In this document: positions 56,374-57,170 of the stretch, piece by piece
How positions within the stretch are numbered: position 1 is the first letter of the stretch
How the letters are laid out: each line of letters begins with the position of its first letter
DNA from: an uncultured Flavobacteriales bacterium
GTDB taxonomy: Bacteria > Bacteroidota > Bacteroidia > Flavobacteriales_E > Vicingaceae
Reading direction: 5' to 3'
DNA length: 64,000 nt
NCBI GenBank assembly: GCA_913056345.1
Contig: CAJXMH010000004.1
Location: 1-64,000 of the forward strand
Program-made: the position numbers and the translations under genes
Notes under the pieces: generated by a model
Databases searched by the model: none
Seen by the model: only the letters and a program-made list of their open reading frames with translations
What the model was told of the DNA's origin: nothing

Positions 56374-57126
56374 ATGTTAACATTAGATGTTTTAACAATC
56401 CCGACAGATGATTATGTAGGATTTACATTTTTCACCGGGTACATGGCCATGATGGCTGCGTCAGTATTTTTCTTTTTCGAAAGAGGTCGAGTAGACGGAA
56501 AGTGGAAAACTTCACTTTTAGTTTCAGGCCTAATTACCTTTATTGCAGCCGTGCATTATTATTACATGCGCGACTATTATTTATCAACGGGTGAAAACCC
56601 GACAGCTTTGCGTTACATAGACTGGACTTTAACGGTTCCGTTGATGTGCGTTGAATTCTATTTATTAACTGTAGTAGCAGGTGCTAAGCGCAGCTTAATG
56701 TGGAAGCTAATTTTTGCTTCTGTATGGATGCTTGTTTTCGGTTACATAGGTGAAGCTTTTAACCCTGAAGGTGGAAGCACAAGTCATTCTGTAACCTACG
56801 GTATACTTTCTACACTAGGATATATATATATTCTCTATGCTGCTTGGTTTGGCGAGGTTGCGCAACTAGCTAAAAACAGTGAAAGTGAAGTAGTAAGAAA
56901 AGGAGTTAAAACCCTTGCATGGTTCGTACTTGTAGGATGGGCAATCTATCCAATCGGTTACATGTGTATGCCTGGAGGCTGGTTAAATACAGCATTCGGA
57001 TGGGGTTCAGAAAATGTTGACCTTTTCTACAACATCGCAGATGCAATCAACAAAATTGGTTTTGGTCTTGTAGTTTATAACATTGCAATTACAGAATCAG
57101 CTAAAGTAAAGGCTCCAGCAGCCTAA
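56374..57126 (+). CDS. Proteorhodopsin, DTE-type light-driven proton pump
   Basis: 250 residues with seven membrane helices. In helix C (RYIDWTLTVPLMCVEFYLL) Asp83, Thr87 and Glu94 correspond to the proton acceptor, Thr and donor (DTE) of proton pumps; Met91 is the spectral-tuning position, and Met is expected to give green absorption. His61 matches the partner of the acceptor. The retinal Schiff-base Lys is Lys227 in DAINKIGFG. Gly143 in helix E (TYGILSTLG) aligns by eye with the fenestration glycine that lets some rhodopsins bind an antenna carotenoid. It exports protons in light across the inner membrane. blh follows behind a terminator. Confidence 0.95.
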   Translation: MLTLDVLTIPTDDYVGFTFFTGYMAMMAASVFFFFERGRVDGKWKTSLLVSGLITFIAAVHYYYMRDYYLSTGENPTALRYIDWTLTVPLMCVEFYLLTVVAGAKRSLMWKLIFASVWMLVFGYIGEAFNPEGGSTSHSVTYGILSTLGYIYILYAAWFGEVAQLAKNSESEVVRKGVKTLAWFVLVGWAIYPIGYMCMPGGWLNTAFGWGSENVDLFYNIADAINKIGFGLVVYNIAITESAKVKAPAA

Positions 57127-57141
57127 TATTGATCTTAAATT

Positions 57142-57170
57142 AAGAAAGGCCTTCGGGCCTTTCTTTTTTT
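57142..57170 (+). terminator. Intrinsic terminator between rhodopsin and blh
   Basis: AAGAAAGGCC TTCG GGCCTTTCTT forms a 10-bp stem with a stable TTCG loop followed by TTTTT. It ends at the base before the blh ATG, so blh has no room for its own leader or ribosome site and would depend on read-through or leaderless initiation. Confidence 0.9.

Follow-up and report, generated by a model that had tools for sequence, protein, structure and literature searches.

Results

A proteorhodopsin gene followed by a retinal-forming dioxygenase gene

The window, by which we mean the whole 64,000-nucleotide stretch of DNA analysed here, carries a proteorhodopsin (PR) gene and, beginning 44 nt downstream of it, a blh gene whose predicted product makes retinal for the rhodopsin. 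The features on which the following analysis draws are:

56374..57126, plus strand: proteorhodopsin gene, 250 aa, ATG start (open reading frame and translation, Pfam PF01036)
56620..56655, plus strand: helix C motif, with Asp83 (56620-56622), Thr87 (56632-56634), Met91 at the tuning site (56644-56646) and Glu94 (56653-56655), from alignment with green proteorhodopsin (GPR), xanthorhodopsin (XR) and NM-R1
56800..56802, plus strand: GGT codon of Gly143, the fenestration glycine in helix E, aligned with XR G156, Kin4B8 G153 and the NM-R1 Gly
56959..56976, plus strand: helix F site YMCMPG, Tyr196 to Gly201; Tyr196 corresponds to Kin4B8 Y204 and Pro200/Gly201 to Kin4B8 S208/Y209, the polar anchors being missing
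57052..57054, plus strand: Lys227, the retinal Schiff-base lysine, aligned in all sequences
57142..57170, plus strand: hairpin resembling an intrinsic terminator, with a 10-bp stem (5 G-C pairs) and a UUCG loop, followed by a T-run up to the blh start codon
57171..58091, plus strand: brp/blh beta-carotene 15,15'-dioxygenase, 306 aa (Pfam PF15461, E=2.6e-44; NCBIfam TIGR03753, 140.6 bits against a cut-off of 95.25)

The hairpin between the two genes was scored by a fixed stem-plus-T-run rule and is the sole element of its kind in the 26 short co-directional gaps examined in the source genome. In related loci, such hairpins occur in 28 of 46 PR-blh gaps and in 27 of 45 post-PR regions with other neighbours (55/91 in total), as against 6/90 of the other short co-directional gaps (Fisher p about 1e-11, relatedness ignored). 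They are present even where blh starts a few nucleotides later. Since the hairpin letters look unrelated in the more distant loci, it is the structure and not the sequence that appears to be conserved; the window holds no match to an Rfam family. This pattern suggests that PR transcripts could end at the hairpin and that blh might be expressed by partial read-through (attenuation), in which case the enzyme would be kept far below the pump in amount. Weak expression of blh in RNA-seq data from Dokdonia PRO95, a different organism from that of the window, agrees with attenuation (PMC3587595).

The rhodopsin is a predicted green proton pump

The 250-aa product matches Bac_rhodopsin (Pfam PF01036) with E=1.5e-44, and the reverse strand of 56374-57126 contains many stops in the frame shown. 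Its AlphaFold model (pLDDT 90, pTM 0.87) adopts the seven-helix rhodopsin fold and lies closest to PR structures, with helix E spanning residues 136-158. NM-R1 and GPR are the best Foldseek matches, and both are also among the entries tied at the top by Z in VIA-align 2. The top Foldseek match is 9jou (56% identity, TM 0.87/0.94), which is titled 'zeaxanthin-bound light-driven proton pumping rhodopsin, NM-R1' and is likewise tied at the top in VIA-align 2 (Z 30.5, rmsd 1.6 over 230 residues). By sequence, the nearest solved structures are 9jov and 9jou, which are tied.

In the multiple alignment, D83, T87, M91 and E94 correspond to GPR D97, T101, L105 and E108, H61 is the counterion His and D223 the second counterion, and R80 is also in place. 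The proton-pump set of Asp97, Thr101, Glu108, retinal Lys, His75 and Asp227 is thus represented in full by D83, T87, E94, K227, H61 and D223. All four helix C residues are unchanged in the 92 nearest homologues (92/92), including the Met at the position 105 equivalent, where Leu or Met, not Gln, marks the green type. The prediction that the protein belongs to the Bacteroidota proteorhodopsin group and pumps protons outward in the light is therefore well supported, as is the green absorption predicted from Met at position 105. The sequence-only reading had proposed a green-type pump with a DTE motif; its numbering of D83, T87, M91, E94 and G143 agrees with the alignment, and M91 together with the motif lends its functional prediction good support. 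Identity as a xanthorhodopsin is ruled out: the protein is about 30% identical to XR against 56% to NM-R1, and it groups with PRs in the tree.

The fenestration glycine is the rule in Bacteroidota

A Gly in helix E is the primary criterion for a carotenoid site of the kind discussed here (PMC12308411). The same initial reading placed Gly143 at the fenestration Gly of xanthorhodopsin. The alignment with XR bears this out, with Gly and no bulky residue at the fenestration site. Helix E aligns without a gap between the window protein (TYGILSTLGYIYILY), XR (LWGFLSTIPFVWILY) and Kin4B8 (MWGVLSTVPFLYILY), and equally against Gloeobacter rhodopsin (GR; IWGTVSTIPFAYILY) and NM-R1 (LWGLFSGVAYFWIVI), which rules out an alignment artefact. 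GPR has Phe at this site according to HMMER and a second multiple alignment; the first multiple alignment had put GPR slightly off, beside a gap-prone loop. Gly143 is not a chance occurrence, because none of the 92 nearest homologues departs from it (92/92).

To avoid the bias of close relatives alone, Bac_rhodopsin matches were also collected across 395 evenly drawn Bacteroidota genomes. They occurred in 61 genomes, and the 67 rhodopsins with a recovered reading frame were aligned. The fenestration Gly is present in 61/67, comprising every DTE-Met proteorhodopsin (23/23), every DTE-Leu xanthorhodopsin-like protein (19/19), every rhodopsin with the NDQ (Na+ pump) motif (17/17) and two others. 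In the remaining six, which are divergent types with different motifs, the position is Trp or Phe. Judged from these alignments, the fenestration Gly is the rule in Bacteroidota, for which GPR with its Phe does not set the baseline, and it is under strong constraint (92/92 homologues, 23/23 PRs, 19/19 XR-like proteins). The claim that ordinary proteorhodopsin has Phe here thus holds for the gammaproteobacterial type and fails for Bacteroidota, and Gly143 as an odd variant among PRs is ruled out, all PRs sampled in the phylum carrying it. The window rhodopsin is ordinary for its phylum and belongs to the already known Bacteroidota fenestrated proteorhodopsins. Gly alone is no proof of a bound carotenoid, because it is also invariant in the NDQ rhodopsins.

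Helix F lacks the polar anchors and marks a sub-clade

The helix-F positions that matter are 204, 205, 208 and 209 in Kin4B8 numbering, and the reported quartets are Y A S Y in Kin4B8, Y M T D in KR1, Y I T E in EinA29G6 and Y M M A in XR (PMC12308411). Our alignment gives Y196, M197, P200 and G201 for the window protein, while NM-R1 reads Y M followed by T P. The Tyr (XR Y207, Kin4B8 Y204) is conserved in known carotenoid-binding rhodopsins (PMC12308411), and Tyr196 is invariant in 92/92 homologues. Aligned against Table 2 of PMC12308411, the window protein has no polar residues at the Kin4B8 S208/Y209 positions, which are occupied by Pro200 and Gly201; the Ser/Thr anchor is replaced by Pro200, or deleted if a one-residue gap is allowed. 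In the binders studied so far, this helix-F residue (S208 in Kin4B8, Thr in KR1, EinA29G6 and NM-R1) fixes the 3-OH of the xanthophyll. Among the 92 homologues, position 200 reads P in 74, D in 10, E in 5, K in 2 and T in 1 in the first alignment, where the NM-R1-like rows that carry Thr are displaced by one position; the second alignment has their Thr in register.

A quick tree places the window protein in an 81-row group (SH-aLRT 96), apart from a 24-row group that contains NM-R1. The Pro200-Gly201 pattern marks this 81-sequence sub-clade, in which position 200 can also be Asp, Glu or Lys and whose signature is GYMCM[P/D/E]GGW. Its members come from Saprospiraceae, Crocinitomicaceae, Hymenobacter, Marivirga, Flexithrix and others.

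PR is present in only a minority of the genomes of the family to which the source genome belongs (L092, L093, L094-L101). The same-family PRs fall into two sub-clades, 82-85% and 57-60% identical to the window PR respectively, indicating that the gene has been gained, lost or exchanged within the family.

Carotenoid genes in the source genome

The source genome (2.9 Mb, 99.66% complete) has one rhodopsin gene, and its carotenoid genes were sought family by family. On C10, a CrtI gene neighbours a gene of the phytoene/squalene-synthase family, CruF and CrtD are adjacent on C9 (L010:7882-10004), and a lycopene cyclase gene, CrtY, is on C1. A CrtZ-like hydroxylase of 154 aa on C20 was named by its Pfam family, length and His motifs; a dedicated CrtZ model did not match it. 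No clear ketolase candidate was found among the FA_desaturase-family and CrtI-family matches in the genome: the three FA_desaturase-family matches resemble membrane acyl desaturases by length, two of them also by sequence, and in the CrtI family only CrtI and CrtD score above the cut-off.

In Nonlabens spongiae, the same gene set plus CrtA-OH leads to myxol, and zeaxanthin is also predicted (PMC11855829). The expected pigment would be zeaxanthin or else a monocyclic 3-hydroxy carotenoid resembling saproxanthin, and the presence of 3-hydroxylated xanthophylls in the source cell is plausible from its gene content. The pathway is scattered over C10, C9, C1 and C20, unlike the single N. spongiae cluster (PMC11855829). 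Next to crtI/crtB (L009:13869-15351) lie genes for an ECF-type sigma factor and for a MerR-type regulator whose C-terminal part may bind B12. We take these neighbours to resemble light-responsive carotenoid control.

Discussion

We propose that the locus encodes a green Bacteroidota PR proton pump that obtains its own retinal through blh and holds a xanthophyll in its fenestration, where the pigment acts on the retinal or its photocycle; taken as a whole, this reading is probably correct. Retinal would be supplied by the adjacent blh product. The retinal-binding and proton-transfer residues, the open fenestration at Gly143 and Tyr196 form the part of the scheme that is read from the protein sequence. 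Beyond these, the cell might supply a 3-hydroxylated xanthophyll of its own, zeaxanthin and/or a monocyclic carotenoid of the saproxanthin type. This pigment might lie along helices E and F and place its ring in the fenestration, close to the beta-ionone ring of retinal, as in NM-R1 and Kin4B8, and could pass energy to retinal or speed the photocycle. The bound carotenoid may be a photocycle accelerator and not an antenna. That carotenoid speeds the photocycle in marine Bacteroidota is the claim made in the title of Fujiwara et al. 2025 (doi 10.1038/s41564-025-02109-1, cited in PMC13093654).

Several characterized rhodopsins bear on this proposal. The closest is NM-R1 (9jou, 9jov) from Nonlabens marinus, which shares 56-58% identity, the DTE motif, Met at the tuning site, the helix-E Gly and the helix-F Tyr. 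It differs in having Gly where the window protein has Thr147 and Thr-Pro (YMAGTPGW) in place of Pro-Gly (YMCMPGGW), and it belongs to a separate sub-clade of the tree. Two further PRs, KR1 (from Dokdonia eikasta) and EinA29G6, bind lutein and zeaxanthin (PMC12308411, JACS Au 2025). They have the PR family and the helix-F Tyr in common with the window protein, but carry Thr-Asp (KR1) and Thr-Glu (EinA29G6) at the two helix-F polar positions in place of Pro-Gly. Xanthorhodopsin from Salinibacter ruber (3ddl) and Kin4B8 (8i2z) show a near-match around the helix-E Gly (GILST / GFLST / GVLST) and the same Tyr; they are set apart by an identity of about 30%, XR-type loops, Leu at the tuning site and, in Kin4B8, Ser208/Tyr209. 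SAR86 GPR is also a DTE proton pump, at about 42% identity, but has Phe at the fenestration position and Leu at the tuning position.

The replaced anchor is central to how far these precedents reach. In Kin4B8, the S208A substitution brought zeaxanthin binding down to 2% (PMC12308411). With Pro200 as the equivalent residue here, the Gly by itself does not suffice to predict binding of a hydroxylated carotenoid. The idea from the initial reading that Gly at this site allows such binding fits the open site and the xanthophyll genes in the genome, but overreaches where the Gly is taken as enough: it is necessary, not sufficient. Given the separate tree group and the missing Ser/Thr, the xanthophyll-binding mode of NM-R1, KR1 and Kin4B8 is therefore not simply transferable. 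The literature covered, which is partial, yielded no carotenoid-binding measurement for the Pro-Gly sub-clade.

These observations leave some room for a pump that works with retinal only, its Gly being ancestral in Bacteroidota rhodopsins and stable xanthophyll binding having been lost once Ser/Thr became Pro, Asp or Glu. The disappearance of the hydroxyl anchor at Pro200/Gly201 over the 81-sequence clade, with P, D, E or K in its place, would fit such a loss, as would the S208A result (PMC12308411). However, Gly143 and Tyr196 are invariant through the sub-clade, which is unexpected for an idle site, and the genome retains a xanthophyll pathway. We regard a retinal-only pump as unlikely, though it deserves serious weight. 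It is far more doubtful that the site binds a carotenoid lacking the 3-hydroxyl anchor near retinal, such as the 4-keto ring in XR and GR: although these proteins are hydrophobic at the two positions (Met/Ala and Met/Leu), which is closer in kind to Pro/Gly than Ser/Tyr is, the FA_desaturase-family and CrtI-family matches in the genome include no clear ketolase, and canthaxanthin was not bound by the PR relative KR1 (PMC12308411).

We therefore favor a pump with a bound xanthophyll. The lasting invariance of Gly143 and Tyr196 argues for a site that is still used, and carotenoid binding by the window rhodopsin is, from its residues, likely but not assured. In the Pro-Gly sub-clade, the usual Ser/Thr hydroxyl would then play no part in holding the ring. 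More tentatively, the whole sub-clade with the signature above could bind xanthophyll by a different anchoring that dispenses with this hydroxyl, possibly selecting monocyclic saproxanthin-like carotenoids of the CruF/CrtD type.

A widespread PR sub-clade thus keeps the fenestration Gly and Tyr without the hydroxyl anchor, which makes it a test case for prediction from the Gly alone. Whether light-harvesting or photocycle-tuning carotenoids can be predicted in this way bears on the estimated number of aquatic rhodopsins that use an antenna.
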